From: Clostridia bacterium
GTDB lineage: Bacteria; Bacillota; Clostridia; Christensenellales; Aristaeellaceae
DNA: 54,494 bases
Reading direction: 5' to 3'
Assembly (NCBI GenBank): GCA_017938695.1
Contig: JAGBBA010000028.1
Span: forward strand, 1 to 54,494
Positions 18,842 through 51,755 of the stretch are shown one piece after another. The notes under the pieces were generated by a model that ran no database searches, was not told where the DNA came from, and saw only the letters and a program-made list of their open reading frames with translations. The position numbers and the translations under genes were made by a program. The stretch's first letter is position 1; every line of letters begins with the position of its first letter.

Positions 18842-18973
18842 CCAAAGGGGCTTCGCCCCTTTGGAAACCCCACCCAAGGGCGCTGCCCTTGGGAATCCCG
18901 GGAGGGGCACTGCCCCTCCACCCCGCCAGAGGCTCTGCCTCTGGACTCCGCGAAGGGCCCTTCGGCCCTTTCG
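18842..18973 (-). repeat. Array of five short GC-rich hairpins (palindromic element, locus 1)
   Basis: Five consecutive inverted repeats at 18842-18864, 18873-18893, 18901-18919, 18926-18944 and 18951-18973, each with an 8-10 bp stem and a 3-5 nt loop. They are separated by short linkers that read TGGGGTTT, CGGGATT, CGGGGTG and CGGAGT on the minus strand. The same hairpin-linker logic recurs at 33.0, 38.5, 42.6-43.0 and 51.7 kb. This copy lacks the CGTCGC...GTGACCCC module. It fills the dnaE to GtrA gap and may terminate dnaE transcription. Confidence 0.85.
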
Positions 18974-32999: not shown

Positions 33000-33135
33000 C
33001 CAGAGGGGACGTTGTCCCCTCTGGACTCCCCTACCAAAGGGTCTTCGACCCTCTGGACTCCCATTTTCGGAGATATGGGGCTTGGTTGGTTTCCTTGCTG
33101 GGGTCACGGTGCACAACAGGTGCACCGCGACGCGT
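33000..33135 (-). repeat. Palindromic element, locus 2 (module plus two hairpins)
   Basis: Read on the minus strand: CGCGTCGC, stem GGTGCAC, loop CTGTT, stem GTGCACC, GTGACCCC (33135-33099), then about 42 bp. Linker GGGAGT leads to a hairpin at 33056-33034 with loop GAA, and linker TAGGGGAGT to a hairpin at 33024-33000 with loop AAC. It fills the gap between the small 72-residue protein gene and the lipase gene. Confidence 0.85.
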
Positions 33136-33146
33136 GGTTGCGGCGT

Positions 33147-33365
33147 TTAGTCCTGTCCTTCGTCGCCGCGCTTATAGTCGGCAGAGAGCAGGCGATCCAG
33201 GGGGATGTCATAAGTCCCTTTGGGTCGCAGGCTGGTGAAGGTCACCCGGCCGGGCTGAAGATTTGTCACTTGGGCGTTCAGCTGCTTCATGCTGCCGTCG
33301 TCCGCAAAAAAGATCAGGCGAATGGGCCGCTGCTTTTCCAGGGAATAACGCAGAAATCGTTCCAT
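33147..33365 (-). CDS. Conserved-looking small protein of 72 residues
   Basis: It starts one base after the stop of the large membrane-protein gene, with GGAGG seven bases before the ATG inside that gene's last codons, so translation is probably coupled. The sequence (RYSLEKQRPIRLIFFADDG, RVTFTSLRPKGTYDIPLDRLLSADYKRGDEGQ) looks like a small beta-barrel with a WYL- or Sm-like rhythm. I recall similar small proteins in Clostridia, but no named family. Function unknown. Confidence 0.75.
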   Translation of the reverse strand: MERFLRYSLEKQRPIRLIFFADDGSMKQLNAQVTNLQPGRVTFTSLRPKGTYDIPLDRLLSADYKRGDEGQD

Positions 33366-35415: not shown

Positions 35416-36399
35416 TTACTTCTTCAGATAGGTCTGCAAAAGCTTCAGCGCAGCATCCATGTCGCGCATGTCGATCACTTCACAGGCGGAGTGCACATAA
35501 CGGCAGGGAATGGAGATGGTGCACACCGGGATGCCGCCGCGGGAGGTCTGCATAGCACCAGCATCAGTGCCGCCGAAGGGCAGCACTTCGCGCTGGGTCT
35601 TCACACCGGCCTTTTCGCCGCAGGCCAGCAGCTCGTCGCGCAGGGCAGGGTTGGAAATGCTGGCACGGTCCATCACCTTCACGGCGCAGCCCTCGCCCAG
35701 CTTGATGGCAGGGATCTTGGTTTCGGGGGTATCGCCCCAGGTGGTCACATCCAGCGCGATGCCGATATCGGGCTCCTTGGCAAAGGAGGCCACCTTCGCG
35801 CCGCGCAGGCCCACTTCCTCCTGCACGGAGAACACGGCGATCACGGTGTCCTTGGTTTCGCCGATGGTCTGCATCAGCTTCACCAGCAAGGCGCAGGCAC
35901 AGCGGTCGTCCATGGCGGGAGAAGCCACGCGGTTTTCGCCCAGGCGGAAGCAATCAGGCGCATACACAGCCATGTCGCCCAGCTTGACCATCTTTTCGGC
36001 CTCTTCCTTGCTTTCCGCGCCGATGTCGATAAACAGGTTCTTCATGGCCTTGGCACCCTGCACAGGCTCGCAGACCACCACGCCCTCCACGCCATTGGTA
36101 AACACTACATGGCGGGTCAGGCTCACGTCGATGCCGATGCCGCCCACGTTGGTCACACGCAGGAAGCCTTCCTTTTCATAGCCGGTCACGATGAAGCCGA
36201 TGTGGTCCATATGCGCGCTGAACATGATCTTCTTTCCGTTGGGGTCCGTGCCGTTCTTCACGCAGATCAGGTTGCCCAGGGCGTCGGTCTCCATGGAGTC
36301 AACGCACCAGTTCAGTTCCTCATGGATGGCAGCGGCCACAGGCTCTTCCATGCCGGAGGGGCCGATGGGCTTGAGCACTTTCTTCAGAATATCAAACAT
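35416..36399 (-). CDS. M42-family aminopeptidase, copy 3
   Basis: 327 residues; GGGAGAG before the ATG. M42 enzymes (PepA/FrvX/TET type) are cytosolic, self-compartmentalising di-metal aminopeptidases. Metal and catalytic residues are in place: His in FSAHMDHIGF, Asp in SPAMDDRCA, the Glu pair in VQEEVGLRG, Asp in IALDVTTWG, and His in CRYVHSACE. Last of three tandem paralogues, 20 bp after copy 2, followed by a terminator. Sequence divergence among the three suggests different peptide preferences within one oligomeric system. Confidence 0.9.
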   Translation of the reverse strand: MFDILKKVLKPIGPSGMEEPVAAAIHEELNWCVDSMETDALGNLICVKNGTDPNGKKIMFSAHMDHIGFIVTGYEKEGFLRVTNVGGIGIDVSLTRHVVFTNGVEGVVVCEPVQGAKAMKNLFIDIGAESKEEAEKMVKLGDMAVYAPDCFRLGENRVASPAMDDRCACALLVKLMQTIGETKDTVIAVFSVQEEVGLRGAKVASFAKEPDIGIALDVTTWGDTPETKIPAIKLGEGCAVKVMDRASISNPALRDELLACGEKAGVKTQREVLPFGGTDAGAMQTSRGGIPVCTISIPCRYVHSACEVIDMRDMDAALKLLQTYLKK

Positions 36400-36419
36400 G
36401 TTGAATCTCTCCCTCTGTA

Positions 36420-37433
36420 TCAGATGCTCTTCAGCAGAGCTTTGGTCAGTTCAAGCTGGCTGTCCACATCGCTGTATTTCACAACGGAGGACGGGCTGTG
36501 GATGTAGCGGCAGGGCACAGACAGCACCACCACGGGCATGCCGCCCCGGGCGCGCTGCATGTTGCCTGCATCGTTGCCGCCGGAAACGCTGCGCTTGACA
36601 TGGTAGCTCAGGCCATTCTTTTCCGCCACGTCAATGGTGTGCTGGAACAGCTTGCGGTTGGCGATGGAGGTGCCGTCCATAAAGGACACGCACACGCCTG
36701 CGCCGGTATTGCACACCTGCAGGGTCTCGGGCACGTTGCCCAGGTCGTTGCAGGTGGTGCCTTCCAGCACGATGCCCATATCGGGATCCATGGCGAAGGC
36801 CGCACCCTTGGAGCCGCGGCAGCCGGTTTCTTCCTGGGAGGCGAACACGCAGATCACGTCGCAGTCGTAGTCGCCCTTCAGCACACGCAGCATATTGAAG
36901 ATGCCCACGCGGTCGTCCAGGGCCTTGGCGGACACATAGCCGTCGCCAAACTCCACATAGTCGGTATCAAAGCAGATGTAGGTGCCCTTGGGGGCCTTGG
37001 CCTCGGCCTCTTCGCGCTTCTTGGCACCGATATCCACATAGATATCGCTGTAGCCCAGCACACGCTCCCGGTCGGCAGCGGACTGCAGGTGGATGGCCAT
37101 TGCGCCGATGATGCCAGGGATCTTGTCGTCGCCCACGGTAACGCGCTTGGAGATGATCACCCGGGGATCCACGCCGCCCACGCAGTTCACGCGCAGGAAG
37201 CCGTCCTCCGTGCAGGAGGTGACGATGAGGCCCACCTCATCCATGTGGGCAGAGAGCATCACGCGCTTGCGGGGCTCTGCGCCCTTGCCCTGTTTCACGG
37301 CCACCACATTGCCCATGCGGTCGATGGAGGTGGTCACGCCGGGGTATTCCTTCAGCTCTTCCAGCAGAGCGCGGCGCAGGGCCTGCTCGTGACCGGCAGG
37401 AGCGTTGAATTCAGTCAGCCATTTCAGATCCAT
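36420..37433 (-). CDS. M42-family aminopeptidase, copy 2
   Basis: 337 residues; GGAGG seven bases before the ATG, which lies within the 3' end of copy 1 (10-bp overlap). Motifs: LSAHMDEVGL, SAKALDDRVG, FASQEETGCRG, IVLEGTTCND and CRYIHSPSSV. At the fourth metal position this copy has Glu (LEG) where the other two have Asp. Cytosolic peptide degradation is likely. Confidence 0.9.
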   Translation of the reverse strand: MDLKWLTEFNAPAGHEQALRRALLEELKEYPGVTTSIDRMGNVVAVKQGKGAEPRKRVMLSAHMDEVGLIVTSCTEDGFLRVNCVGGVDPRVIISKRVTVGDDKIPGIIGAMAIHLQSAADRERVLGYSDIYVDIGAKKREEAEAKAPKGTYICFDTDYVEFGDGYVSAKALDDRVGIFNMLRVLKGDYDCDVICVFASQEETGCRGSKGAAFAMDPDMGIVLEGTTCNDLGNVPETLQVCNTGAGVCVSFMDGTSIANRKLFQHTIDVAEKNGLSYHVKRSVSGGNDAGNMQRARGGMPVVVLSVPCRYIHSPSSVVKYSDVDSQLELTKALLKSI

Positions 37434-38461
37434 AGGTCATCCTCCCATCCTGCGTCCAGCTCGCTGAGGAAGTGGGCGATCACGCGGCCGCCCTCGGTCA
37501 GTGCCTGGAGGTCGATGGTCTCCACCGTGGTGTGCATGTACTTCAGCGGCAGGGACAAAAGCACCGTGGGGATGCCCGCACGGGCGATGCCCACTGCGTC
37601 AGCATCGGTGTAGGTGCTGCGGGCACTGACAGCGGTCTGCAGCTTTACATGGTGCTCCTTGGCGCACTTCATCAGCCGGTCCAGCAGCTTGGGCTGGATG
37701 TAGGGGCCGATGGTGGCGCACAGGCTATCGCCGTCCACGGTGGTATCGGGGCGGCTGCCGGGGATGGTGGCATGATCCACATCCAGGGCCACAGCCAGGT
37801 CGGGATCAATGGCGAAGGCCGCCGTCATGGCACCGCGGGAGCCGACCTCCTCCTGGGTGGAACCCACGAAGTACACGTCAGCGTCGCAGTGCATCTTGCT
37901 CAGCCGCTCGGCAGCCAGCAGCAGAATGGTCACGCAGGCGCGGTCATCCATGGTCTTGCAGGCGATCTGCCCGTTCATCAGCTCGGTCAAGGGGGCGTTG
38001 AAGGTCACCAGGTCGCCGATGTGCACCAGCTCCTTCACCTTGTCGCCGGGCAGGCCCACGTCCACATAAAGATCCTTGCTGCTGTAATTCTTGCTGCGCA
38101 TTTCATCCGTCAGCAGGTGGGGCGGCAGCGCGCCGATGGTGCCGAACAGCTTCTCCTTGCCATGCACCCACACGCGGCAAGCAGGCAGGATGCGGGGATC
38201 CACGCCGCCCACATTGCCCAGGCGGATGCTGCCGTCGTCCTCGATATCCACCACCATCAGGCCGATCTCGTCCATATGGGCACAGAGCATCACCTTGGGG
38301 CCGTTGCCCTTCTTATGGGCAATGACATTGTACATGCTGTCAATGCTCACTTCATCCACAAAAGGGCGGAACTGCTCTGCAAAATATTCTGCAATTTCCA
38401 TTTCCTGTCCACTGGGCCCCAGCTTGCCTGCGGCCTCAGACAGTACCTTCTGTATGTCCAT
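37424..38461 (-). CDS. M42-family aminopeptidase, copy 1
   Basis: 345 residues; AAGGAGG before the ATG. Motifs: LCAHMDEIGL, CKTMDDRACV, STQEEVGSRG, VALDVDHATI and LKYMHTTVETID. First of the three-gene operon, with an extended -10 promoter just upstream. All ligands of the di-metal site are conserved. Overlap with copy 2 suggests coupled translation and a possible mixed complex. Confidence 0.9.
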   Translation of the reverse strand: MDIQKVLSEAAGKLGPSGQEMEIAEYFAEQFRPFVDEVSIDSMYNVIAHKKGNGPKVMLCAHMDEIGLMVVDIEDDGSIRLGNVGGVDPRILPACRVWVHGKEKLFGTIGALPPHLLTDEMRSKNYSSKDLYVDVGLPGDKVKELVHIGDLVTFNAPLTELMNGQIACKTMDDRACVTILLLAAERLSKMHCDADVYFVGSTQEEVGSRGAMTAAFAIDPDLAVALDVDHATIPGSRPDTTVDGDSLCATIGPYIQPKLLDRLMKCAKEHHVKLQTAVSARSTYTDADAVGIARAGIPTVLLSLPLKYMHTTVETIDLQALTEGGRVIAHFLSELDAGWEDDLWI

Positions 38462-38489
38462 GCTTTTCCTCCTTCATAAAATTGCCAAT

Positions 38490-38498
38490 ATTATACCA
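38490..38498 (-). promoter_or_regulatory. Extended -10 promoter of the M42 operon
   Basis: TGGTATAAT on the minus strand (TG-N-TATAAT), 28 bp before the first M42 start codon. There is no good -35, which fits an extended -10 type. Confidence 0.6.
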
Positions 38499-38525
38499 TA
38501 GATGCCCGAAAAATGAAACCACCGC

Positions 38526-38660
38526 CCAAAGGGAGGTGCTGCCTCCCTTTGGAAACCCTCCGCCCGAGGGATGGCATCCCTCGGGGCTCCCCCTTTGGCT
38601 GCGTGTTGCGTACGCATCCAAGCAGGGGTCACGCCGCGCAACGGGCGCGGCGCGACGTGG
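38526..38660 (-). repeat. Palindromic element, locus 3 (module plus two hairpins)
   Basis: Read on the minus strand: ACGTCGC, stem GCCGCGC, loop CCGTT, stem GCGCGGC, GTGACCCCTGC (38660-38622), about 37 bp, then hairpins at 38585-38563 (10-bp stem, 3-nt loop) and 38552-38526 (11-bp stem), separated by CGGAGGGTTT. It lies between crh and the M42 operon promoter. Confidence 0.85.
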
Positions 38661-38678
38661 AATATGGGGCGTATGGGG

Positions 38679-38930
38679 TCAGGCGTTCAGCCATTCCAGG
38701 ATGGCAGCAGAGGCAGCGTCCTCGTCCGGGCCCTCTGCCAGAAGCACCATATTGCACTGGTCATCCAGTCCCAGGGATAACAGCCCCAGCATGGACTTGG
38801 CATTCACCAGCTTCTGATTGTGCTCGATCATCACCCGGCTCTCAAACCGGTTGGCGATCTGCACCAGCTGCGCCGCACTGGAACGATTCAGCGGCTTACC
38901 TTCTGGAAAAGTGATCTGGTTTTTAATCAT
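38679..38930 (-). CDS. crh: Crh-like HPr paralogue lacking the active-site His
   Basis: 83 residues from ATG 38930 (GGGAGG seven bases upstream), overlapping whiA by 8 bp. It has the HPr fold, but the HPr active-site segment GLHARPA reads PLNRSSA, so the phosphorylatable His is missing. The regulatory Ser46 region is kept (NAKSMLGLLSLG). That combination and the place after whiA match Crh of Bacillus subtilis, a regulatory HPr phosphorylated on Ser by HPr kinase that acts in catabolite repression and, in some species, methylglyoxal control. HPr kinase is not in the window. Confidence 0.85.
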   Translation of the reverse strand: MIKNQITFPEGKPLNRSSAAQLVQIANRFESRVMIEHNQKLVNAKSMLGLLSLGLDDQCNMVLLAEGPDEDAASAAILEWLNA

Positions 38931-39909
38931 TTGTGTTCCTCCCTTCCGCCTTTTGTATGGGCAGTGTCGCCCTGATTTCCTTTGCAATATCCATCAAGCG
39001 GCGCATACGGTGATTCACGCCGCTTTTTCCCACAGGTGGATCCATCAGCTGGCCCAGCTCGTTCAGGCTGAGGGACGTGTGCTCCAGCCGCAGCCGGGCA
39101 ATTTCCTGCAAGCCCGGGGGCAGGGTGAACAGTCCTCGTTGGATGGAGATCAGCTTGATGGCCTCGATTTGCTCATCCGCCGCATTCAGCATGCGCTCGG
39201 AGTTGTGCTCGTCGCAGTTGGAAGCCCGGTTGGCCTCAGCCCGCATCTGCTTTTTGATGCGGATGTTTTCCAGCTCCAGCACGGCCTGGCTGGCACCCAT
39301 CAGGGCCAGCATATCGGCAATCTGCTGCGCGCCCTTGAGGTACATCACGTTTTGCCCCTTGCGCACATGCTCGTGCACGGGCAGGCCACACTTGTCCAGC
39401 AGCTTGGCCAGGGTCTGGCGCAGGCTCTGATCCTCCGCCACCCATTCGAAATGATAGCTCTTTTCCGGGTTGTTCATGGAGCCGCAGCCCAGGAACGCGC
39501 CGCGCAGGAAGGCCCTGCGGCAGCACTGCCGCGTCATGGGATGCCGGGGCGCGGTGCGCTTCAGGCTGATGTGCCCCTCCTCGTCACGCTCCATCATGTG
39601 CAGGGCGATGAGCAGCGTCTGGGAGTCCTGGTCACCCAGGGTCAGCACGCAGCTGCGGCGGCCGCCCAGGCGGGTGTGCTGCACAAAATGCAGCTTGGCC
39701 GTAATGTTGAGCTGGGTGCGCAAAAGCAGAAAGATGCGGCGCGCCAGGGCGGCGTTTTCCACCCGGTAGGTCACCTGCACGCGACCCAGGCCGCGCAGGG
39801 CCAGGCTGCCGGAGGTCTGCGTCAGGGCAGACAATTCGCTGAGAATACAGCAGCTTTTGCCCATGGGCAGGCGGATCAGCTCATCCTTTGCCACAGATGA
39901 AAAGGACAT
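38923..39909 (-). CDS. whiA: DNA-binding protein WhiA
   Basis: 328 residues; AAGGAG before the ATG. An N-terminal degenerate LAGLIDADG-like domain (about 1-200, with CCRRAFLRGAFLGCGSMNNPEKSYHFEW) and a C-terminal helix-turn-helix (about 215-315: NRASNCDEHNSERMLNAADEQIEAI, SLNELGQLMDPPVGKSGVNHRMRRL). WhiA affects division and chromosome segregation in Bacillus and sporulation in Streptomyces. It follows rapZ directly. The yvcK/mgfK gene normally between them is absent here. Confidence 0.97.
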   Translation of the reverse strand: MSFSSVAKDELIRLPMGKSCCILSELSALTQTSGSLALRGLGRVQVTYRVENAALARRIFLLLRTQLNITAKLHFVQHTRLGGRRSCVLTLGDQDSQTLLIALHMMERDEEGHISLKRTAPRHPMTRQCCRRAFLRGAFLGCGSMNNPEKSYHFEWVAEDQSLRQTLAKLLDKCGLPVHEHVRKGQNVMYLKGAQQIADMLALMGASQAVLELENIRIKKQMRAEANRASNCDEHNSERMLNAADEQIEAIKLISIQRGLFTLPPGLQEIARLRLEHTSLSLNELGQLMDPPVGKSGVNHRMRRLMDIAKEIRATLPIQKAEGRNTND

Positions 39910-39918
39910 TTTCTCTCC

Positions 39919-40821
39919 TTATTCGTCGGTCACGGTGCCGTTTTTCCAGCGCGCCTGCTCGATCTCCAGGTCGCGGTGGCTGGCGGCTACCTCGTATTTC
40001 TTGCTGCTCAGGTGCTGGGCAATGGCCTCAGCGATGGCCACGCTGCGGTGCTGGCCGCCGGTGCAGCCGATGGCGATCATCAGCCGGTGCTTGCCCTCTT
40101 CCTGATAATGGGGCAGCAGGAATTCCAGCAGGTCGGTGACCTTGCTCATGAACTGCTCCGTTACCGGATGCTCCATCACAAACTTGCGCACGTCCTCGTC
40201 CAGGCCGGTCTGGCAGCCCAGGCCCTCGATGTAGAAAGGGTTGGGCAGGAAGCGTACATCGTACACCAGGTCTGCCTGGCGGGGCAGGCCGCGCTTGAAG
40301 CCGAAAGACATCACCTCAATGCGCAGGGGGATGTTCTCCCCGTCTGCCTTGACAATGTTCTGCAGCTTCTTCTGCAGCTGCTTGGGCTTCAAAACGGAGG
40401 TGTCGATCACATAATTGGCGATCTCCCGCAGGGGCTGCAACCGGTCGCGCTCCTGCTGGATGGCCTCCATCAAGCTCACCTGGGCATTGGCCAGGGGATG
40501 GTCGCGACGGGTTTCCTTGTAGCGGCTCATGAGCACGTCATCACTGGCCTCAATGAACACCGTTTCGATCTGGTAGCCCAGCTTGCAGGCCTCGCCGATC
40601 AGCGTGCTCACCGCATCGGCATCGAAAAACTCGCCGCTGCGCACGTCAACAGCCAGGGCCACCACACTGTTGGGCAGTGCAGTGGTCTGGCAGATCTCCA
40701 TAAACTTGAACATCATCATGGGCGGGAGGTTATCCACACAGAATGCGCCCATGTCCTCCAGATAGCGGGTCGCCAGGGTCTTGCCTGCGCCGCTCAGGCC
40801 CGTCAACAGCAGAAATCGCAA
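39919..40821 (-). CDS. rapZ: Nucleotide-binding protein RapZ (YvcJ)
   Basis: 300 residues. The start is TTG at 40821 with GAGAGGG six bases upstream, giving the canonical MRFLLLTGLSGAGKT N-terminus. Walker A is LSGAGKT (P-loop, 9-16). Other landmarks are FCVDNLPP, DVRSGEFF, FIEASDDVLMSRYKETRRDHPL, MSFGFKRGLP, DVRFLPNPFY and GCTGGQHRSV near the C-terminus. It binds UDP-GlcNAc in B. subtilis and controls GlmS RNA decay in E. coli. Operon: murB-rapZ-whiA-crh with 9-28 bp gaps. Confidence 0.97.
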   Translation of the reverse strand: MRFLLLTGLSGAGKTLATRYLEDMGAFCVDNLPPMMMFKFMEICQTTALPNSVVALAVDVRSGEFFDADAVSTLIGEACKLGYQIETVFIEASDDVLMSRYKETRRDHPLANAQVSLMEAIQQERDRLQPLREIANYVIDTSVLKPKQLQKKLQNIVKADGENIPLRIEVMSFGFKRGLPRQADLVYDVRFLPNPFYIEGLGCQTGLDEDVRKFVMEHPVTEQFMSKVTDLLEFLLPHYQEEGKHRLMIAIGCTGGQHRSVAIAEAIAQHLSSKKYEVAASHRDLEIEQARWKNGTVTDE

Positions 40822-40849
40822 GGGATTCCCTCTCTTTCGTGATGCAATG

Positions 40850-41782
40850 TCAAACAGCGTTCACCGGCGCGTCTTCCCCCAGGATGCGCACCTCCGGCTC
40901 CAGCATGATACCTTTCTGTTCGTAAACCACCTTTTGCACATGGGCGATCATCGCCAGGAAGTCCGCCGCTGTGCCGCCCAGGTTGACCACAAAGCCCGCA
41001 TGCTTTTCGCTTACCTGGGCACCGCCGATGGTCGCGCCCTTCAGCCCGCATTCGTCGATCAGCACCGAAGCATAGCCGCCCACGGGCCGCTTGAAGGTGC
41101 TGCCTGCGCTGGGCACCGTCAGGGGCTGCTTTTCAGCACGGCGGCGATTCAGCTCCACCATTTCCTTCAGCAGGGTTTCACGGTCTGCCTTGGGCAGCTG
41201 GCAGGTCACATGGGTGATCACCTTATCCTCGTTCATCAGCCGGCTGAAGCGGTAGCCAAACTCCATCTCCGGCCGGGTGTAGGCGAAGGGTTCGCCTTCC
41301 ATGGTGAAGCCTTCTACTTTGGTGACCACTTGGCTCATTTCGCCGCCGTAGGCACCGGCGTTCATGTACACACCGCCGCCCACCGTGCCGGGAATGCCGC
41401 TGGCGAAGGTCAGGCCGCCCAGGTTGTGCTCGGCAGCGGTCATGGCCAGGCTGGAGAGCATCGCCCCGGCCTCAGCGCGAACGGTGCCGCCCTGCACAGT
41501 GATGCTGCGCATTTCGCGGCACAGCCGGATCACCAGGCCGCGGATGCCGCCGTCCTTCACCAGCAGGTTGCTGCCGTGGCCCATCAGCGTTACGGGGATA
41601 TCCAGGTCGTGTGCTTCTTTCAGCAGCCGCTGCAGCTGCTGGGGGCTATTGGGCTCTGCCAGCAGGTCTGCCGGGCCGCCCAGCCTCAGGGTCGTATATT
41701 GCGCCATGGGGGCCATGGAGATCATCTTGATCTCGCCACCCAAGCGGTTTTCCAGTTCGTTCAAGGGTCGCATATCGGTCAT
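40850..41782 (-). CDS. murB: UDP-N-acetylenolpyruvoylglucosamine reductase MurB
   Basis: 310 residues from ATG 41782 (AGGAGG upstream). A FAD enzyme making UDP-MurNAc in the cytoplasm for peptidoglycan. FAD motifs TTLRLGGPADLL and LMGHGSNLLVKDGGIRGLVIRL; FASGIPGTVGGGVYMNAGAYG; the catalytic Ser in PSAGSTFKRP; the C-terminal Glu in GIMLEPEVRILG. It is type II-like in length (about 300 residues). Own promoter at 41805-41833; first gene of the rapZ-whiA-crh transcript. Confidence 0.96.
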   Translation of the reverse strand: MTDMRPLNELENRLGGEIKMISMAPMAQYTTLRLGGPADLLAEPNSPQQLQRLLKEAHDLDIPVTLMGHGSNLLVKDGGIRGLVIRLCREMRSITVQGGTVRAEAGAMLSSLAMTAAEHNLGGLTFASGIPGTVGGGVYMNAGAYGGEMSQVVTKVEGFTMEGEPFAYTRPEMEFGYRFSRLMNEDKVITHVTCQLPKADRETLLKEMVELNRRRAEKQPLTVPSAGSTFKRPVGGYASVLIDECGLKGATIGGAQVSEKHAGFVVNLGGTAADFLAMIAHVQKVVYEQKGIMLEPEVRILGEDAPVNAV

Positions 41783-41804
41783 AATCGATCCTCCTGTATC
41801 TTTT

Positions 41805-41833
41805 ATTGTACCGCATTTCAGCCCCTTCATCAA
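41805..41833 (-). promoter_or_regulatory. Promoter of the murB-rapZ-whiA-crh operon
   Basis: TTGATG (41833-41828), 17-bp spacer, TACAAT (41810-41805), 23 bp before the start codon. Confidence 0.78.
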
Positions 41834-41856
41834 GCAGAAAACCTGTCGAAAGCAAC

Positions 41857-41884
41857 AAAAAACCATGCCAAAATTGACACGGTT
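41857..41884 (-). terminator. Intrinsic terminator after the VTC gene
   Basis: Stem AACCGTG / CATGGTT (one wobble) with a 10-nt loop and six T on the minus strand, 10 bp after the stop codon. Confidence 0.78.
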
Positions 41885-41893
41885 TTTTTGTGC

Positions 41894-42601
41894 TTATGCT
41901 TCTAAATTTTCAAACCGGCGGCACCAGGTGTATTTGCTGATGGCCGTCTGCACCACACCGCCGCAATAGGTGGTCAGCAGATCGCGGATGTAGGGCGGCA
42001 TCACCTGGTTGTACTTGACCTCCAGGATCATCACATTCTCATCCAGGGGCGGCACCGTGGGCACATAGGGGTTGAACAGGTCGATGGAGCCCAGCCCCGT
42101 GCGCAGCTGCTTGTCGAAGGTGATGCGCACCTCCTCCGCCGGATGCAGGTAGGCCTCGCGCACATAGTCCACCAGCACCACCGGATGCAGAAGGTTGGTG
42201 GTCATTTCCCGGTACACGTCGCCCAGCAGGCCCGAGCGCGTGGTTTCCAGCCCCGTGGGATCAGCGGCTATCAGCTGCTCGCACAGGTCCATGGGAATGG
42301 ACAGCGAGCGCTTGGAGATCAGGCTGCCCACCTTGGTCTTGCACTCCAGCTTGATGACCTTGTCACTCAAATTATAAATGCGGATACGGTACTTGTCACG
42401 GGCCGGATCGCCGTCCAGCTTATCATGCAGGGCGGTGTCGAACGCCGTGTCAAAATACAAACTGCGAATATGATACTCGTTGTTTTCATCGCCGTTCGGA
42501 TCGCGCCACAGCACCTTATCCAGCGCATTGCGCAGCAGATGATACTGCATATCGTTGATGAAAAACTTCAGCTCATGCCGCAAAGGAATATTAACCGCCA
42601 C
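41894..42601 (-). CDS. VTC-domain polyphosphate polymerase
   Basis: 235 residues from GTG 42601, preceded by a perfect AAGGAGGTGAT. The VTC tunnel fold is shown by LRHELKFFIND, the YHIRSLYFDT motif, KYRIRIYNLSDKVIKLECKTK (basic tunnel residues), and VMILEVKYNQVMPPYIRDLL with the catalytic Glu/Lys. VTC domains polymerise ATP into polyphosphate in yeast. Bacterial forms commonly neighbour DUF4956 and CotH genes, as here. No own promoter is visible: a 380-bp repeat element separates it from DUF4956. Confidence 0.9.
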   Translation of the reverse strand: MAVNIPLRHELKFFINDMQYHLLRNALDKVLWRDPNGDENNEYHIRSLYFDTAFDTALHDKLDGDPARDKYRIRIYNLSDKVIKLECKTKVGSLISKRSLSIPMDLCEQLIAADPTGLETTRSGLLGDVYREMTTNLLHPVVLVDYVREAYLHPAEEVRITFDKQLRTGLGSIDLFNPYVPTVPPLDENVMILEVKYNQVMPPYIRDLLTTYCGGVVQTAISKYTWCRRFENLEA

Positions 42602-42617
42602 AGTATCACCTCCTTCG

Positions 42618-42989
42618 TCAGGGCTCTGCCCTGACAACCCGCCAGAGGCTCTGCCTCTGGACTCCGCTCAAGGGGCGTTGTTCCGCAACCTCAATCGTCG
42701 CCTTCTCGCTACGCTCGAATGCTCGTTTCGGTTGATTCGCTCAGCTCGCTCATTGTCGCCACTGGCGACGCTCGCATCGCTCACCCTTGAGAATCCCTTT
42801 CTGCGATTGACACTACTCACTTGCCAGCAATGCGCGCATGTAGCGCGTCCCTTCCCCCGCGTCGCGGCGCATCCGTTATGCGCCGTGACCCCTGCCCGGA
42901 AATCACCCAGTAACACCACCCCCGAACGGGAGTCCAGAGGGCAGAGCCCTCTGGTCAGGGGATCCCTAAGGGGGCGAAGCCCCCTTAGG
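42618..42989 (+). repeat. Palindromic element, locus 4 (370 bp, hairpin arrays at both ends)
   Basis: Two hairpins (42618-42634 and 42642-42660) in one orientation, about 195 bp of interior, then the module CGCGTCGC - GGCGCAT - CCGTT - ATGCGCC - GTGACCCCTGC (42857-42894), and two hairpins in the other orientation (42934-42954 and 42965-42989). The last hairpin includes the DUF4956 stop codon. Inverted hairpin arrays at the ends look like a small non-coding mobile unit inserted between VTC and DUF4956. No ORF in the interior is supported. Confidence 0.8.
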
Positions 42990-43701
42990 CCCCGGCTTCG
43001 GTCTGGCAGGCGACGAGGGTCGCGTCGTGCACGCCGTCGATGTTCAGCATGGAGGCGACCAGGTCCTGCTTGTTGTCCAGGCGGACTTCATAGGTCATTT
43101 CGGCACCGGCGCGGGTCATGGTCTTGGAGCGCAGGCGGCGGTTCTTCACGGTGCGGCGCAGCTGCTGGTTGATGTCATACTCGGCAGCCTCGTCGTAGTG
43201 GAGCACCAGCAGGTAGGCGTTGGGGTTGGTGAACTTGACGAAGGTCATCAGGAACAGCACCACAGAAATACCCAGCACCACCACCAGAGCGATGACGTAG
43301 AGCTCTGCACCCAGCAGAATGCCCATGGTCAGTGCCCAGAACATGTAGGCAGTATCCATGGGGTCCTTCACGGCGGTACGGAAGCGGACGATGGACAGCG
43401 CGCCCACCATGCCCATGGACAGGGCAATGTCGCTCTTGATACACATAACCACGGGGGTGGTGATCAGGGTGAGCATCACCAGGGTCATGGCGAAAGAGGG
43501 GCTGTACAGCACGCCGCGGTAGCACTTCTTGTACACGAAGGCTATCACCACGCCCACCACAAAGCCCATGATCAGCGCAATAAGCACCTTCATGGGGGTC
43601 AGGCTGGCAAACTGCTCGGCAAAGTAGGTGTTCAGGGCCGCGTCGTTGGACACCAGGTTGCCAACGTTCAGGCTTTCCAGAAGGGCAAAATTCGTCTGCA
43701 T
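42985..43701 (-). CDS. DUF4956 membrane protein
   Basis: 238 residues; AGGAGG before the ATG. Three to four membrane helices in the first 155 residues (PMKVLIALIMGFVVGVVIAFV, FAMTLVMLTLITTPVVM, ALTMGILLGAELYVIALVVVL) include the conserved GMVGALSIVRFRTAVKDPMD. A cytoplasmic ferredoxin-like C-terminal domain follows (YEVRLDNKQDLVASMLNIDGVHDATLV). It belongs to DUF4956, usually found with VTC and CotH proteins. It may pass polyphosphate or a signal across the membrane, which is inference. Own promoter at 43734-43763. Confidence 0.9.
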   Translation of the reverse strand: MQTNFALLESLNVGNLVSNDAALNTYFAEQFASLTPMKVLIALIMGFVVGVVIAFVYKKCYRGVLYSPSFAMTLVMLTLITTPVVMCIKSDIALSMGMVGALSIVRFRTAVKDPMDTAYMFWALTMGILLGAELYVIALVVVLGISVVLFLMTFVKFTNPNAYLLVLHYDEAAEYDINQQLRRTVKNRRLRSKTMTRAGAEMTYEVRLDNKQDLVASMLNIDGVHDATLVACQTEAGA

Positions 43702-43733
43702 GGGGTTACCTCCTGTATTTCACAGTAACTGAT

Positions 43734-43763
43734 ATTATACCGCATTCAGGCCGCATCCGTAAA
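43734..43763 (-). promoter_or_regulatory. Promoter of DUF4956
   Basis: TTTACG (43763-43758), 18-bp spacer, TATAAT (43739-43734); about 30 bp before the start codon. The -35 matches 4 of 6. Confidence 0.55.
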
Positions 43764-43805
43764 CAGGCAAGCGGCATTTTTCAGCAATTTCCTTCAGGGC
43801 ACGTC

Positions 43806-46800
43806 TTAAGGCACATACTCCGGCGGGAATTCCGGCATGGGGCCGAAGTAGCCGATCATCTGCTCCTCAGAGAGATTGAAGGCATCCTTGATGAAGCCCC
43901 ACAGGCGGGTAGGACGGCCGTAGATCACGTTGCGCAGGCGGTTCACGCGCTGCTCCCAGTAGCGGTAGGCACCGTCGGGCGTGGTGGGCCACTCGGAAAT
44001 GACCATCTTGTCGTGCTCCTCGGCCCAGCGGGCAAAGTGCAGCTGCATTTCCGGCTGAATCTGATCCACCATGGGGTTGAGGATCTCCAGCATCTTCTCG
44101 GTAGAGAAGAACTTGTAGATGTCTGCCAGCTTGGTCAGGAACTTGTCCTTGTACTCCGGCACGGACAGAAGCTTGAGCAGAATGGTATTGTCGATATTCT
44201 GGTCGCCCATGCCCTTGGCCTTAAGGTAGCTCTTGGGGCTATCGAAGCCGGAGCGGAACATGCCGTAGTCCGAGTCGAAGAAGATCCACTTCCACTTGTT
44301 GCCCTCGCCGTCGATGCGGTAGGCGCGCAGGTTACCGATGTCGGAGTTGCCTACAAACATCTCCAGGGCAATGTACTCGAAGTAATTGTCCACATCCACA
44401 TTGTCCAGGATGTACTGCAAGTCTTCCTCGTTGTTGGCCGGGTCGGAGGCCTTGATCTTCTTGATCATGCTGCGGTAGCCGGAGTTGTCGCCATACTTGT
44501 AGGCACCACTACCCTCAATGATGACCATGTTGTCCGCTTCCTCCAGGGACAGGCCCTCATGCTGGGCCACAAAGAAGCGGTCAACGCGCTCGCGCATGTT
44601 GTAGTGGCCCCAGTAGATGCCGTTGAGGTACACCACCACCGGGTTCCAGGCCTGGTGGATCACCTGGGAGCCGTAGGCGTCCAGCATCCGCGACTGGAAG
44701 CCGTCCAGCAGGCGGGTCCAAGCGCAGTCGTTGCCGGAGTTGCGCAGCACGATGGACTTGTACTCCGTGTACGGCCGGTCCTCAAACAGCTTGGCGGCAA
44801 AGGTCTTTTCGCCGTAAAGGGTCTTGGCGCGGAGCTTGAAGGTCTTTTGAGGCATGTCCAGGCTGTACTGGCCCTGCAGGGAGAACGCCATGCCCTGGTC
44901 AAGCACCTGGGTGCCGTCCAGCAGGTAGTATTCCACATGGCCTTCCTTGTCGGGCAGGTTCTCCTTCACCTCGCGGTAGACCGTGTTTTTGAAGGGGATC
45001 TTGGGCTTGCCGTTTTCATCCGTTTTGATGACGTTGTCGCCAATGGTCAGCATGCCGGTTTCCGGGTGCCACAGATCCACCGGATCGGCCACCAGGGACA
45101 CGATGGGCAGGTTGTGATAGGCGTTCACAAAATAGCTGCCGGTGATGACCGGGCTGGGCTGCAGGCCACTGTTGGAGAAAGCCCGGGCCCGCAGCACCGT
45201 GGCGGTGCTGTTCAATTCCAGCGTTTCGCCGTTGTAGGGCGTGGAGGCCTGAGTGGGCACCGAGCCATCCGTAGTGTAATACACGGTGGTGTCCGCCGGG
45301 ATGGTGAAGCCGGTGTGCACGGTGGTGTAGTACAATCCCGGCTCGGTCACGAAGGCGGGGGCCTCCGCATAGCCCTTGAAGCCAGTGCCGTTGGCCGCCA
45401 TGGGGGTGGGAGCATCATAATAAAAAAAGCCCGACAGCCCGATGGTACGGCCATAGGACACATTCGTCGGCACATGAGGCAGCACCACTTTGTCGATCAC
45501 CTTGCCCTCGGGCGTGGCCAGGCACATGATCTCGCCCCCGGTACGGGTGATCTTGAAGCTGGTGTGCAGCTGCGCCGTGGTGGACAATTCCGCCTGTCCG
45601 TCGCAGAGGATCACCTTGTATTCGCCGGGATGGATAATCGTCCCCTGGGGGAACTGCCACTTGCGGCCCCGGCCCAGGTTGTCCGAAAAACCGTAGCCGG
45701 TCAGGTCGACGATAGTCTGGGAGGCGTTGTAGATCTCCACCCAGTCCACAAAAACGTCGTCCTGGTACACCAGGGTGGAATCGTTGGAGGCCATGACCTC
45801 GGTGATGTACACGCCCACCGGGTTCATGGCGCGGAGGTTCTCATCCATCCGCGCAGCACCGGCCTCTGTGTTGGAGAGGCCGGGCGTTGCGATCTGATGC
45901 ACGGAGAAGCTGCCGTCGCTTTCGCGGGCGTAGGAGCAATCCTCCGGCAGGTTGTCGATGGTCACGCGGTCCACCAGGCGGCCATGGCCGTCGGACAGGA
46001 CCACGGTATCATGCTCTGCGCTGAGCTTGAAATTGGCATGGGGCACGCTGGATGCGCTGATGGCCCGGTCCTTGCCGGAGCAGAACACCACATAGTACCC
46101 GTGGGGGGCCACCACCGCGCCCTGGGGGAAGCGCCACTGCAAGGGCTTGTTTTCCTTGTCGCTCAGGGCGTAGTTATCCAGGCTGATGGCATAGTCCGTG
46201 GTGTTGTACAGTTCGATCCAGTCGCTGAGCTCGCCGTCCTCGTCGGTGAGGCCGGTGATGGGGTCGGCCATCACCTCATTGATGATCAGCGCGCCGGTGG
46301 TGACCATGGTATCCGCCTGGTAGGCATGATAGCCGGTCTCGCTGTTTTCATAGCCGGGGCTGAAGAAGGTGGTGGACGCAAACTTGCCGTCCATCAGGGC
46401 CCAGCTTTCGTCGCTGGCCATGATGGGGTTGGTGGCGGAGTCGATCAGGTAGGCGTTGGGGTCGTAGAGGTACACCGTTTCGCCCACGGAGCTCAGCTTG
46501 AACTTGGCATGGAAGGGCTTGCCCACCTCCGCCGCATTGGTATCCGAGCAGAACACCACCACCCGCTGGCCGGGCTGCAAGGTCATGTCCGGGAAGATAA
46601 AGCGAATGGAGTCGCTGCGGTCGCTCAGGCCCACGTCCTTGATGTTGATGGGCGCGTCAGAGCTGTTCCAGATCTCCACCCAGTCGCTGTAAGAGCCGTT
46701 TTCATCCGGCACAGCGGTCTGGTTGGAGGGCATCATTTCGCTGATGACCAGGCCCTCATAGGCCGCGCTGCGCCCGTCGGCAGCGGCGCTCACATGGCCG

Positions 46801-47009
46801 TCGGCCGTACCGGAGGTATAGGTGGCGCGGGCAACGGGCTCCTTGGGGCTGATCACCACGATCAAACCCACCAGGGCAATAAACACCGCCAGGGCCAGGA
46901 TAATGCTGGCACGGGATTTCTTTTTCCGGCTGCTTTGCCGGGCAGGCTCGTAGCTGCGCTGATTGCTCCGCGCCCTGCTGCTTCGCCTTACGGGAGGCAT
47001 CTGCTCCAT
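43806..47009 (-). CDS. CotH-kinase family surface protein with three lamin-tail domains
   Basis: 1067 residues; GGAAGGAT before the ATG. A basic cytoplasmic leader (1-34) and one membrane helix (about 35-55) are followed by lamin-tail (LTD) domains at about 87-200, 240-370 and 400-520 (each with VISEM/IINEVMA/YITEVMA and SDWVEIWN/SDWIELYN/VDWVEIYN). A chitobiase-C-like domain covers about 555-630 (YYTTDGSVPTQAS), then the CotH kinase domain about 640-1000: KTFKLRAK, LRNSGNDCAWTR, YLNGIYWGHYNMRERVDRFF, and KWIFFDSDYGMF with the catalytic DxD-like Asp pair. CotH in B. subtilis is a spore coat kinase. Here it is the outside partner of DUF4956 and VTC. Confidence 0.92.
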   Translation of the reverse strand: MEQMPPVRRSSRARSNQRSYEPARQSSRKKKSRASIILALAVFIALVGLIVVISPKEPVARATYTSGTADGHVSAAADGRSAAYEGLVISEMMPSNQTAVPDENGSYSDWVEIWNSSDAPINIKDVGLSDRSDSIRFIFPDMTLQPGQRVVVFCSDTNAAEVGKPFHAKFKLSSVGETVYLYDPNAYLIDSATNPIMASDESWALMDGKFASTTFFSPGYENSETGYHAYQADTMVTTGALIINEVMADPITGLTDEDGELSDWIELYNTTDYAISLDNYALSDKENKPLQWRFPQGAVVAPHGYYVVFCSGKDRAISASSVPHANFKLSAEHDTVVLSDGHGRLVDRVTIDNLPEDCSYARESDGSFSVHQIATPGLSNTEAGAARMDENLRAMNPVGVYITEVMASNDSTLVYQDDVFVDWVEIYNASQTIVDLTGYGFSDNLGRGRKWQFPQGTIIHPGEYKVILCDGQAELSTTAQLHTSFKITRTGGEIMCLATPEGKVIDKVVLPHVPTNVSYGRTIGLSGFFYYDAPTPMAANGTGFKGYAEAPAFVTEPGLYYTTVHTGFTIPADTTVYYTTDGSVPTQASTPYNGETLELNSTATVLRARAFSNSGLQPSPVITGSYFVNAYHNLPIVSLVADPVDLWHPETGMLTIGDNVIKTDENGKPKIPFKNTVYREVKENLPDKEGHVEYYLLDGTQVLDQGMAFSLQGQYSLDMPQKTFKLRAKTLYGEKTFAAKLFEDRPYTEYKSIVLRNSGNDCAWTRLLDGFQSRMLDAYGSQVIHQAWNPVVVYLNGIYWGHYNMRERVDRFFVAQHEGLSLEEADNMVIIEGSGAYKYGDNSGYRSMIKKIKASDPANNEEDLQYILDNVDVDNYFEYIALEMFVGNSDIGNLRAYRIDGEGNKWKWIFFDSDYGMFRSGFDSPKSYLKAKGMGDQNIDNTILLKLLSVPEYKDKFLTKLADIYKFFSTEKMLEILNPMVDQIQPEMQLHFARWAEEHDKMVISEWPTTPDGAYRYWEQRVNRLRNVIYGRPTRLWGFIKDAFNLSEEQMIGYFGPMPEFPPEYVP

Positions 47010-47096
47010 GTGCCGATCCTTCCTTTCGTGTATCGGGATACAGGCTTGCGCCTGCTGGCTTCACTGATAGAACGAACCAAATCCGCTCCATCTTGC

Positions 47097-47125
47097 ATTG
47101 TACCATATCTTTCCCCGATATGCAA
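47097..47125 (-). promoter_or_regulatory. Promoter of the CotH gene
   Basis: TTGCAT (47125-47120), 17-bp spacer, TACAAT (47102-47097). It lies 7 bp after the stop of the SNF2 gene; the leader is about 80 nt. Confidence 0.78.
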
Positions 47126-47131
47126 TCTTGC

Positions 47132-50100
47132 TTATGTGAACAATGCCCGAATATCCTGCTCCGTCAGCGCGGTCACCAGTTCCTCGCCGGGGGTGATCAG
47201 CTGGTCGAACAGGGCCTTCTTGCGCTGCCCCAGCTCCACCACCTGCTCCTCGATGGAGCCGTGGGTCACCAGGCGGATGACCTCCACCTTGCGGGTCTGG
47301 CCAATGCGGTGGGCACGGTCGGTGGCCTGATCCTCCGCCGCCGGGTTCCACCAGGGATCGTAGTGGATCACCATGTCCGCACCGGTCAGGTTCAATCCGG
47401 TACCGCCTGCCTTCAGGGAGATCAGGAAGATGGAGCCCTGCCCGGCATTGAACTGCTCGGTCATCTCCAGCCGCTTGGCCGGAGGCGTTTCGCCGTCCAG
47501 GTACATGGTGGCGTAGCCTTCGCTTTCCAGCTGCTTGCGCAATATTTTGAGCATGGACGTGAACTGGGAGAACAGCAGCACGCGCCTGCCTGCGGCGATG
47601 GCACCGGGCAGGATTTCCAGCAGCAGGTCCATTTTGCCTGCGGTGCCGCTGTAATCCGGCAGCACCAGGGCCGGGTGGCAGCAGATCTGCCGAAGCTCGG
47701 TGATGGCTGCCAGCACTTCGGTGCGGCCGCGGCCCAGGCCTTTTTCGGCCATCACATGATCCACGCGCTCCTTCAGGCGGATCATAGCGGAGCGGTAGAC
47801 CTTGTTCTGCTCCGGGCTCATCTGGGCGGTAAGCACTTCTTCGATCTTGTCCGGCAGCTCGGTGAGCACGTCCTTTTTCAGTCGGCGCATGAGGAACGGG
47901 CGGATCTTCCGGCGCAGGTCGTCGGCGTTTTCCCCGTCCTGATAGCGGCGCAGGAAGGCCCCGTAGCTATTGAGGTAGCCCGGCAGCACAAAGTCGAAGA
48001 TGCTCCACAGTTCGCCCGTGGAGTTCTCCATGGGCGTGCCCGTCAGCGCAAAACGGGTGCGGGCCTGCAATTGCTTTACCGCCACCGCGCCCACACTGCC
48101 GGCGTTCTTGATGTGCTGTGCTTCGTCCAGGATCACGAAGCGGAACTGGATATCCGTCATCTGGTCGATATCGCGGCGGATCAAGGGGTAGGAGGTGATC
48201 AGCACGTCCACGTCCTTGACTTCCTTCACGTGGTGGATCTGGCTGGCCCGCTGGGCACTGGGACCGGAGAGCACCATCACGCTCAATTCGGGGGCAAAGC
48301 GGTTCAGTTCGCTCAGCCAGTTGTAAGTCAGGGAAGTGGGTGCCACCACCAGCGACACCTGGTCGCTTTCCTGGGTGGCCTTGAGCAGCGAGATCACCTG
48401 CACGGTTTTGCCCAGGCCCATGTCGTCTGCCAGGATGCCGCCCATGTGCAGCCTGTCCAGGGTGTGCAGCCACTGGTAGCCGCGCTGCTGGTAGGGCCGC
48501 AGGGTGAGGCCGTGGGGCAGGCGCACGTTGCTCTCTTTGGGGGCGGTCAGCGTCTGCACCGTCTGCTGGACGGATTCATCCACCTCCACGGGCAGCTTGC
48601 ACTCTTCCAGGAGGCTGTTCAGGTAGCAGGTACGGTAGGCCTGCAGGGTCACTGTATCGCCGCTGATGTTCGTAAGGCCCTCGGCGTCGGCGGCATCGGC
48701 CAGGTTGTCTGCCAGGGGCTGCCATTCCTCCATGTCGGTCAGATCCAGGAAGGAGCCGTCCTTCAGCCGGAAATACCGGCGGCGTTTGCTCAGGGCTTCC
48801 ATGATGCCCAGGATCTCCTGGGCAGGCTCGCCTTCCTCGGTAAACTGCAATTCCAGCTGGCCGCCCTTCATCTGCATGCGGCCGCGCAGGAGGGGCTTGC
48901 GGGGCGTCATTTTGCGGAAGTCCCGGCTGAAATACACTTCGCACAGGCTTTGCAGCTTCTGCACACCGCCGGAAACAAAGTCGAAGATGGCGTCCTGCCC
49001 GGTGAGGTACACCCGGCCCTTGCTCACATAGAAGCCGGAGCCGCCCAGGGCATCCAGCACCTGGCGTTCCGCCGCTGCATCGCGCAGGAGCAGCTTTTCA
49101 TTCCGGGAGAAGGTTTCCGGGGGCGGCGTTTCATCAAAGGGGTCGATCTCCGTTTCGCCATAGCGGAAAGCCGTGCGGGCCACCACGTCCCGGCCCTCGC
49201 GGTCCAAGTAGAGCTGGGCCAGCAAGGGCAGCTTCACCAGCTGCTTTTCCAGTTCCGGGGCGATCTCCACCACGCCGGTCAATTTCAGAAAGGGGATCAG
49301 TTCGCCGATGACCCGGCCCATCTCCCGCATGGGATACTCAAAGGCACTGCGGCCGTCAAACTGCTCCTGCCACAAAACGCGCATCACGCCGCGCTGCTTT
49401 TCGTCCACTTCCACCACGTTGCCCGCCACCACCGCATAGGCGCAGGAGGAGGTCAGGGGCTGAAAATCCTTTGGGAAAAGGCCGGTGATGGTCAGACCGC
49501 GCATGGTGCTGCTTACCTTGAAATGCAAGGGAAGCCGCGCGCCGCGCACACGCTTGACCGTAAACACCTTGCCATCCACCGCCATGCGGAAGGGCAGGCC
49601 GGTCAGTTCTTTCAGCACAGCCTCGGCAAAGGGCTCCGGCAGGGTCATCACCCGGGCATCCGCGCCGCGCAGGGCCAGGCCAGCCTCCTGCTGGGCCAGA
49701 CACAGCGACCGCAGGATGTCCAGCACGCGCATCTCCCGGGGCGCAAAGTGCATCCATTCCGGATGGTAGGCAAACCCCTTGCCAAACTCCATGGGTGCGC
49801 CGTCCACCACCGCGTCGATCAGCTGGGGAATGGAGCGCACCACATACAGCCGCTCCTCCCCCACCCTGAGGCCAATCTTCAGCCGGGGCTTTTGCTTCAG
49901 GCGCGGCGTTTCATAAAACAGGGTGATCTCCATGCTCAGGGTGCCGTCTTCGGGCAGGGCGGATTCCATGGCGTTCATCAGCAGCGGTGCCGCCGATGCA
50001 GCCTTGCGGCGGAACAACTCGTCCAGCGCACCGGCATCCTTGGCCATCAGCGTGGCCGCCACCAAATGCCTACACGCGCCTTTCTCCTGGAATACCTCGC

Positions 50101-51527: not shown

Positions 51528-51755
51528 CGCCTTGCGGCGACAGCTCTCCCCAAGGAGAGCCAAGTGCCTGTGCCAGCTTTGCTGCTCCCCCGCGTCGCGG
51601 TGCGCCCTTTGCGCACCGTGACCCCTGCTTATATCCGAATGCATTGCATACCCGGAATGGGTTTCGAAAGGGCCGAACGGCCCTTCGCGGGAGAGTCCAG
51701 AGAGGGCAGAGCCCTCTCTGGCAGGGGATCCCCAAGGGGACAGAGTCCCCTTGGG
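51528..51755 (+). repeat. Palindromic element, locus 5 (module plus three hairpins)
   Basis: Left part holds hairpins GTCGCC/GGCGAC and GCTCTCC/GGAGAGC. Then come the module CGCGTCGC - GGTGCGC - CCTTT - GCGCACC - GTGACCCCTGC (51590-51628), about 36 bp, and hairpins at 51665-51687, 51697-51721 and 51731-51755. Their linkers are CGGGAGAGT and CAGGGGATC. The whole gap 51447-51810 between ZIP and rplA has no gene; it ends with the rplA terminator. Confidence 0.85.

Follow-up and report, generated by a model that had tools for sequence, protein, structure and literature searches.

The four palindromic modules found in the window (the entire stretch of 54,494 nucleotides of DNA that was analysed) belong to what we regard, with moderate confidence, as a new family of small, non-autonomous and modular palindromic repeats of a REP- or BOX-like kind, which are kept as hairpins and are either tolerated or useful at the 3' ends of mRNAs. 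The copies are numerous and fold into hairpins with covarying stems, their modules are exchanged, they are present at some orthologous sites and absent from others, they are carried by phages, and they are positioned at stop codons. The restriction of the head hairpin to one genus, the fusion of many elements to stop codons and the carriage by phages are new relative to the initial annotation, which described a module of fixed flanks around a 7-bp stem at four places.

As judged from the aligned copies, a unit consists, in this order, of a 5' leader (A-AGC-N-GC..CCCCG), a head hairpin of 12 bp (CGTC[G]C..GTGACCCC), a self-folding spacer, and one to several GC-rich cassettes, with marked conservation beginning about 15 nt before CGTCGC. 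The units of the window and the features connected with them are the following.

18842..18944, minus strand: further array without recognised head, composed of four cassettes (18842-18864, 18873-18893, 18901-18919, 18926-18944)
33000..33056, minus strand: cassettes of copy 1, hairpin 1 at 33034-33056 (CCAGAGGG..CCCTTTGG type, GAA loop) and hairpin 2 at 33000-33024
33095..33147, minus strand: head of copy 1 (exact core 33100-33132), identified by pattern and model; leader and 12-bp hairpin GTCGCGGTGCAC/GTGCACCGTGAC, loop CTGTT
38526..38585, minus strand: cassettes of copy 2, hairpins at 38563-38585 and 38526-38552
38620..38672, minus strand: head of copy 2 (exact core 38625-38657), stem GCCGCGC/GCGCGGC, loop CCGTT, located between the genes for HPr and an M42 peptidase
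42617..42660, minus strand: array without recognised head, divergent to copy 3, hairpins at 42642-42660 and 42617-42635
42686..42800, minus strand: repeat of about 110 nt (...GAGCGAATCAACCGAAACGAGC...) in a cassette-hairpin loop of this headless array, limits set by eye
42845..42897, plus strand: head of copy 3 (exact core 42860-42892), stem GGCGCAT/ATGCGCC, loop CCGTT
42934..42989, plus strand: cassettes of copy 3, hairpin at 42934-42954 and terminal hairpin at 42965-42989
51578..51630, plus strand: head of copy 4 (exact core 51593-51625), stem GGTGCGC/GCGCACC, loop CCTTT
51665..51755, plus strand: cassettes of copy 4, hairpin 1 at 51665-51687 (by eye), followed by hairpins at 51697-51721 and 51731-51755

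All four modules are present with the stems and loops given before, and their exact cores, matched by a degenerate head pattern with 0 mismatches, lie a few bases inside the earlier coordinates. The same pattern returned these four copies alone from the window; with three mismatches allowed, 10 matches were obtained compared to a mean of 5.67 in shuffled sequences, and none stood out as a diverged further copy. The region of 42618-42989, from which the module had been described, consists of two divergent units, namely the headless array on the minus strand and the headed copy 3 on the plus strand. Elsewhere in the window, three tandem and mutually similar genes of about 1 kb occupy positions 35416-38461, the one tested (37424-38461) coding for an M42 peptidase, and a long run of a degenerate 12-bp repeat extends over positions 2858-4000, mostly in predicted coding sequence.

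The genome containing the window (G000; 2,530,275 bases or 2.53 Mb in 76 contigs, 87.5% complete) harbors 84 matches to CGTCGC-N15-25-GTGACCCC, compared to 0 for a reversed-pattern control. Of these 84, 83 are palindromic and were taken as real copies, because the exception (C28:89070) is not. A covariance model trained on the 83 palindromic copies yielded at least 118 matches in the same genome at E<=0.01 when the best 150 of 2362 first-look candidates were scored, comprising the 83 copies and 35 more, so that the existence of further copies, on which the initial annotation had staked its proposal of a family, is evident from both searches. Most model-found copies start with CGTC and a few with CATC or TGTC, and in 13 matches of G000 (70-71 nt) a longer stretch, which reads as further hairpins, takes the place of the loop. 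Since heads and contig end are separated by about 30-110 nt in contigs C10, C42, C52, C14, C47, C55, C61, C37, and C43 of G000, the assemblies seem to break at the arrays, and the copy numbers are probably undercounted. Close divergent pairs of heads occur at L089 11385-11514, L073 2496-2899, and G000:C31:12622-12739, recalling the head-to-head dimers of REPs.

The stem of the head had been given as 7 bp and is corrected here to 12 bp, because GTCGC pairs with GTGAC, including one G.U pair. What had been taken for fixed flanks is thus the foot of the 12-bp stem with its near-fixed G.U pair, but the foot is changed in rare copies: among 22 copies outside the pattern, compensated changes to GTCAC/GTGAC occur in three and to GTCTC/GAGAC in one, and the flanks had seemed fixed partly because four copies only were at hand. 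In the 83 pattern-found copies, 99.4% of the cells are paired, compared to 90.8% after re-dealing. As the search itself had fixed the flanks of these copies, a set of 47 copies found by the covariance model in genomes of the genus other than G000, and aligned by fitting to it, is the fairer one. In this set, 98.0% of the cells are paired versus 87.8% after re-dealing, both-sided changes affect 5 of the 12 pairs, and 51 cells represent double changes, compared to 11.8 after re-dealing and 0-8 in slid controls. The covariation of the head stem, originally read from four copies, is genuine and holds once many copies are aligned. The G.U pair is retained in 44 of the 47 copies, while two contain A-U and one G-C, and at one site common to G002 and G001, as judged by eye from the similarity of both flanks (G017 sharing one of them), three pairs of the stem have changed on both sides. 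Selection on structure, as deduced previously from compensatory change, is the likely cause, but templated mutation by template switching could give a similar pattern.

The remainder of the unit is structured as well. The spacer ends in (GA)AYGGG in most copies, and its arms covary, as indicated by a mean duplex energy of -11.2 compared to -10.14 after re-dealing, with 0 of 200 re-dealings as low (75 of the 83 copies parsed, spacer length set by rule to 15-50 nt). A hairpin finder recorded two or more hairpins in the 150 nt behind the head for 77 of 78 copies compared to 42 of 78 composition-matched shuffles, which bears out the two or more GC-rich hairpins reported to follow each module; the actual number ranges from 1 to 5. 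The cassette loops are mostly composed of three bases. By eye, the first cassette mostly contains a GAA loop, together with a G.T pair when it is of the CCAGAGGG/CCCTTTGG type, and AGA, AAC, or AAA loops are common in the later ones. Among 80 copies, the head stem is linked to its own loop (V 0.8), the spacer is linked to the first cassette (V 0.37), and no linkage exists between the head stem and either the spacer class (V 0.15, p 0.89; classes set by our own text patterns) or the first cassette (V 0.16, p 0.81), indicating that the modules re-assort between copies. Two larger arrangements were considered and rejected: for an outer helix formed by the 5' leader with the sequence following GTGACCCC, the best of 400 tested pairs reached z 3.0 and no run of pairs was apparent, and a closed global fold of the CCCCG leader with CGGGG linkers, seen in single folds, is unsupported by re-dealing (z 0.46). 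No common right end or terminal inverted repeat was seen across the 83 copies.

Some further repeats are associated with the units. A GGAATTC/GGAATGC tract occurs within 700 nt on the head side of 25 out of 93 heads of G000, compared to 6 of 500 random windows of 700 nt, and on the cassette side in 0 of 98 cases; as units of phages contain a similar tract, it may belong to the unit. The repeat of about 110 nt (..GAGCGAATCAACCGAAACGAGC..) is located in the loop of a cassette hairpin at 42686-42800 of the window and likewise in L232, L237, and L205, as if a second element were targeting hairpin loops. Moreover, an interspersed palindromic repeat (..CTCTCAGTC..GACAGCTC..GGAGAGCCAAG..) is often found just before the leader of the head, in the window at 51512-51565.

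A model search of 60 genomes including G000, using stricter filters for large sets, detected heads in 16 of 18 genomes of the same genus and in 0 of 42 genomes of other genera. Their numbers across the genus amount to 1-4, then 13-52, and up to at least 97, which equals the number scored, and the pattern has 105 matches in G012 and 101 in G006. Among 150 genomes of the family, seven of which belong to the genus, the pattern is numerous in the genus only; outside of it, 15 genomes contain one or two matches, none of them palindromic, which is about the level of the reversed control. The cassette GTCCAGAGGG..CCCTCTGG is present in 18 of 18 genomes of the genus and in 2 of 42 others. G008, a member of the genus without any head recognised by the model, contains 43 of these cassettes, and 30 places viewed there often represent arrays of similar spacer and order with a different leading hairpin (..GGGGGCGATCGGAAAGCCCCC..; loci L314-L333). 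A similar array in G034 from another genus ends at a stop codon (one locus). Among the matches listed, the named records containing the pattern are the MAGs of uncultured Clostridia RGIG4032, RGIG9056, RGIG5426, SIG355, and SRR17382103_bin.47, the first three of which originate from roe deer, water deer, and sheep gut.

A view on orthologous sites shows that they may be filled, half-filled, or empty. The junction between rplA and a ZIP transporter gene holds a unit and other repeats in G000, while the same junction in the four closest genomes by rplA (G006, G012, G004, and G015) is short and contains a terminator and no unit; the other ten rplA loci have different neighbors or too little sequence. 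Eleven of 101 copies of G000 were placed with both flanks in about 799 kb of G012, where four sites, all short junctions between same-strand genes, are without unit, five carry a different head stem and different cassettes, and two retain cassettes without head. In the closer pair of G006 and G012, 8 of 37 copies were placed, all at filled sites and with the same head stem in four and a different one in four; the complete filling is biased, because five of the eight lie in pieces of G012 chosen for holding heads. Units thus persist in both species at some orthologous sites, which also fits a host-useful element.

Three contigs of IMG/VR match the head pattern. One of them (L216) has genes for portal, major head, and major tail proteins and carries the unit directly behind the major head gene. 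Two further contigs, L337 and L338 (head protein 97% identical), contain a unit with different hairpins at the same place, the DNA identity of the two phage types being about 82-89%. Among 17 more distant phage relatives (49-78% identical), no head was found within 260 nt of the end of the major head gene; this comparison covers 22 of 35 phage loci, and of the other 13, L353 and L357 end inside the gene and eleven are 27-38% identical. A viral search with a second pattern, representing the class with six-base loops, gave no match. Empty sites in relatives, which the initial annotation had suggested looking for, accordingly exist at the rplA junction of four relatives, at 4 of the 11 sites placed in G012, and in the distant phage contigs. 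The genus restriction, the absence from some orthologous sites and the carriage by phages suggest that the heads are probably mobile. Neither clean-ended insertions nor target duplications were found in relatives that are too diverged for defining exact junctions, and transposition is therefore inferred. A small set of head alleles keeps recurring at different sites and in different species, and orthologous sites often contain different alleles, suggesting copying between sites.

The position of the units relative to genes was evaluated with a simple codon model of our own, which gives approximate gene starts, for 101 of the 118 copies (left out were three within 140 nt of contig ends, L222, and 13 others). 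Of 98 copies, 74 have a convergent and 24 a non-convergent neighbor on the cassette side, and between co-directional genes the cassette side faces the stop of the upstream gene in 52 cases and the head side in 16. If G-T pairs and a single mismatch are tolerated, 56 of these 74 convergent genes have the end of the last hairpin at or within their stop codon. Among 59 perfect stems of at least 7 bp that were scored, 26 start right after the stop codon, and 13 start one or two bases earlier and thereby enclose it. Endings at stop codons also occur in 5 of 10 cases in G012 and in 39 of 58 at loci from four further genomes. In 673 genes of G012 that were not chosen for units, the first hairpin most often lies at an offset of 9 bases, and the offsets peak at 3, 0, and 1 in 474 genes around the units of G000. 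Within the window, the terminal stem of copy 3 (CCTAAGGGGG/CCCCCTTAGG) encloses the stop codon (42985-42987) of the convergent gene 42985-43701 (minus strand) together with two bases of its last sense codon, and the first base of the head of copy 1 lies inside the TAA stop codon (33147-33149) of the upstream gene on the same strand. The cassettes of copy 4 stop beside a terminator-like hairpin of rplA (51769-51794, minus strand), the headless array at 42617..42660 ends beside a sequence resembling a ribosome-binding site (by eye) of the next gene, which encodes a VTC domain, and the array at 18842..18944 lies 17 nt past the stop codon of gene 15252-18824 (plus strand). In the pair of phages, the stop-codon stem is CTTAAGGGG/CCCCTTAAG versus CCTAAGGGGG/CCCCCTTAGG, and the last codon is GCT versus GCC, a synonymous change that is matched across the stem in the 3' UTR; between the two phage lineages, the two arms of the stem have gained a G and a C, respectively, and the adjacent base pair has changed. 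Nearness to stop codons is already known for the REP class, since GTAG REPs are reported to supply the stop codon often, and REPs to lie mostly within 20 bp of 3' ends, by Di Nocera et al. (2013; PMC3733652). What stands out against known REPs is the stem that encloses the stop codon, to the base, in many copies.

These positions would also be expected if the hairpins served their hosts as 3' UTR elements, blocking 3' exonucleases or stopping transcription or read-through (by Rho or pausing), such that they are selected and their spread is secondary. We consider this a possible but less probable reading. The stems that start immediately behind the stop codon (26 of 59) or enclose it (13 of 59), the refilling of the same site by different, equally folded units, and the phage pair that keeps its stop-codon stem by a synonymous change matched in the 3' UTR argue for it. 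Near relatives contain unit-free sites, four of which in G012 are short same-strand junctions, copy numbers vary from 1 to about 100 within one genus, 24 of 98 copies have a non-convergent gene on their cassette side, and rplA keeps an ordinary terminator-like hairpin beside the unit, all of which argues against it, as does a T-tract after only 1 of the 59 stop-proximal stems. The latter value, together with a terminator scan of 32950-51900 that recorded none at the cassettes, renders the simplest version, in which the GC-rich hairpins directly behind genes are intrinsic terminators, scarcely tenable.

The orientation of the units bears on the question of whether they are expressed. The near-constant G.U pair of the head corresponds to an A.C mismatch on the opposite strand, and intermediates show a small excess of G.T (10) over A.C (4), besides 20 other mismatches, which points to folding of the head strand. 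The evidence on strands is conflicting: the head strand gives the better fold for 56 of 80 whole units, whereas for the cassettes alone the opposite strand does so in 56 of 80. Expression of the unit as a structured non-coding RNA or riboswitch would agree with its covariation, its ordered architecture, and its strong folding, with a mean z of -5.78 on the head strand across 80 units, yet we regard it as very improbable. The head strand is antisense to both neighbors in 52 of 101 copies, and no marked conservation of a promoter-like kind is seen farther upstream of the head than about 15 nt, leaving no sign of a shared promoter. Transcription of a head-strand RNA is hence unlikely, and re-dealing does not indicate long-range pairing of the leader with the linkers either (z 0.46). 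Among the covariance models of Rfam, tRNA alone reaches its gathering score within the window, and no match at E<=1 was obtained in 42600-43000.

The covariation itself might originate from growth in place, if template switching in replication (quasi-palindrome correction) rather than selection or copying between sites produced the paired changes and extended the arrays up to a stop codon or ribosome-binding site. We regard this as unlikely, even though stop codons and bases of the last codon lie inside the stems, the loops are as short as three bases, and the two phage lineages differ by a paired gain of G and C plus one neighboring base-pair change in the stop-codon stem. The few head alleles recurring across sites and species and the differences between orthologous sites suggest copying between sites instead, and a near-constant G.U pair (44 of 47) should become a Watson-Crick pair if the stems were corrected against each other.

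Under the preferred reading as a family of REP- or BOX-like repeats, the units may be copied by a trans-acting enzyme recognising the folded head in single-stranded DNA, and the near-constant G.U pair would mark one of the strands. Compensatory change would then reflect the need to fold, and units would survive where their hairpins do the least harm or are of some help, i.e., directly behind a stop codon, where they could shield or delimit the 3' end of the mRNA. A more far-reaching and rather doubtful idea is that of a previously unrecognised, hairpin-only genetic element, which would be copied between cells, sites, and phages via a folded single strand, exchange its modules freely and absorb the stop codon of the host (perhaps also the ribosome-binding site) by its outermost hairpins, with the coding sequence co-evolving, as the matched synonymous change in the last codon of the phage capsid gene would illustrate.

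CGTC REPs, BIMEs, and BOX elements raise the questions of how they are moved and of whether the host benefits from their hairpins. The genus described here offers a graded series of copy numbers (0, 1-4, 13-52, and about 100), filled, empty, and half-filled orthologous sites, a head amenable to model searches, and carriage by a phage, which makes mobility, the cost or benefit of a stop-codon hairpin and the origin of the covariation by selection or templated mutation testable. It also provides a warning that covariation in an intergenic repeat need not imply a functional RNA.

No description of these elements was found in the open-access literature of PMC. The initial annotation knew of no named class for them, and Rfam contains no match, but small interspersed palindromes of this general kind, such as REP and BOX, are a known class. 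RAYTs share the fold of Y1 transposases, which were therefore considered as movers and rejected. No match to a Y1 transposase exists in G004, G015, G003, and G013, which contain 13-52 heads in genomes that are 77-88% complete, and the one IS200-like gene of G000 has no head beside it; matches are present in G006, in G009 and, interrupted by an internal stop, in G012. As far as incomplete genomes tell, Y1 transposases do not look like the mover in this genus, nor was a RAYT of the kind that characterises the genomes of RAYT-associated (GTAG) REPs, where it is typically flanked by the repeats, found in them.

BIMEs are mosaics of REPs. The present units likewise form a mosaic of palindromic units with linkers, but their head differs from the cassettes, and by eye the cassettes and linkers point the same way, whereas the units of BIMEs alternate in orientation (PMC2817692). 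With MITEs they share the small size, the non-autonomous nature and the presence or absence between relatives; they differ in that no common right end or terminal inverted repeat was seen and in being GC-rich, MITEs being described as AT-rich (PMC3049150).

Assignment to the CGTC-tagged REPs proper, or to REPs moved by a RAYT, appears improbable. As described by Di Nocera et al. (2013; PMC3733652), CGTC and GTAG REPs are also short intergenic palindromes of tens to hundreds of copies or more, located at the 3' ends of genes and often by the stop codon, with numbers varying between species and with variable stems, and the CGTC REPs are likewise without known transposase. The units match CGTC REPs in the CGTC at the end of the palindrome (83 of 84 pattern matches, the pattern having required CGTC), the 9-bp stem after the tag, the 5-nt loop, the intergenic location at 3' ends and the lack of a dedicated transposase. 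In the CGTC REPs of the same account, listed for Proteobacteria, Chlorobi, Bacteroidetes, Spirochaetes, and Thermotogae, the tag is unpaired, the stem of 8-9 bp almost always starts with AT, and the tail is mostly CCA. In contrast, the tag is paired here (GTC with GAC; pairs 17-71, 18-70, and 19-69 form in 43/45, 44/45, and 47/47 cells), the stem starts with GC and the tail is (GA)CCCC; the units are further distinguished from both types of REPs by an ordered spacer and cassettes, by their occurrence in a genus of Clostridia and by the lack of a RAYT found with them. The BOX elements of pneumococcus, built as boxA-(boxB)n-boxC with terminal inverted repeats and target duplications according to Croucher et al. 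(2011; PMC3049150), resemble the units in their modular build with inner modules of varying number, their enrichment between convergent genes, their predicted hairpins and their presumed mobility, a likeness of architecture by description and not by sequence comparison. Unlike BOX elements, the units end at stop codons, and neither terminal inverted repeats nor, in relatives too diverged to define exact junctions, target duplications were found. Since three traits of the CGTC REPs fail and the plan of BOX elements is present while their reported ends were not found, the units are filed as a new family of the REP/BOX kind.
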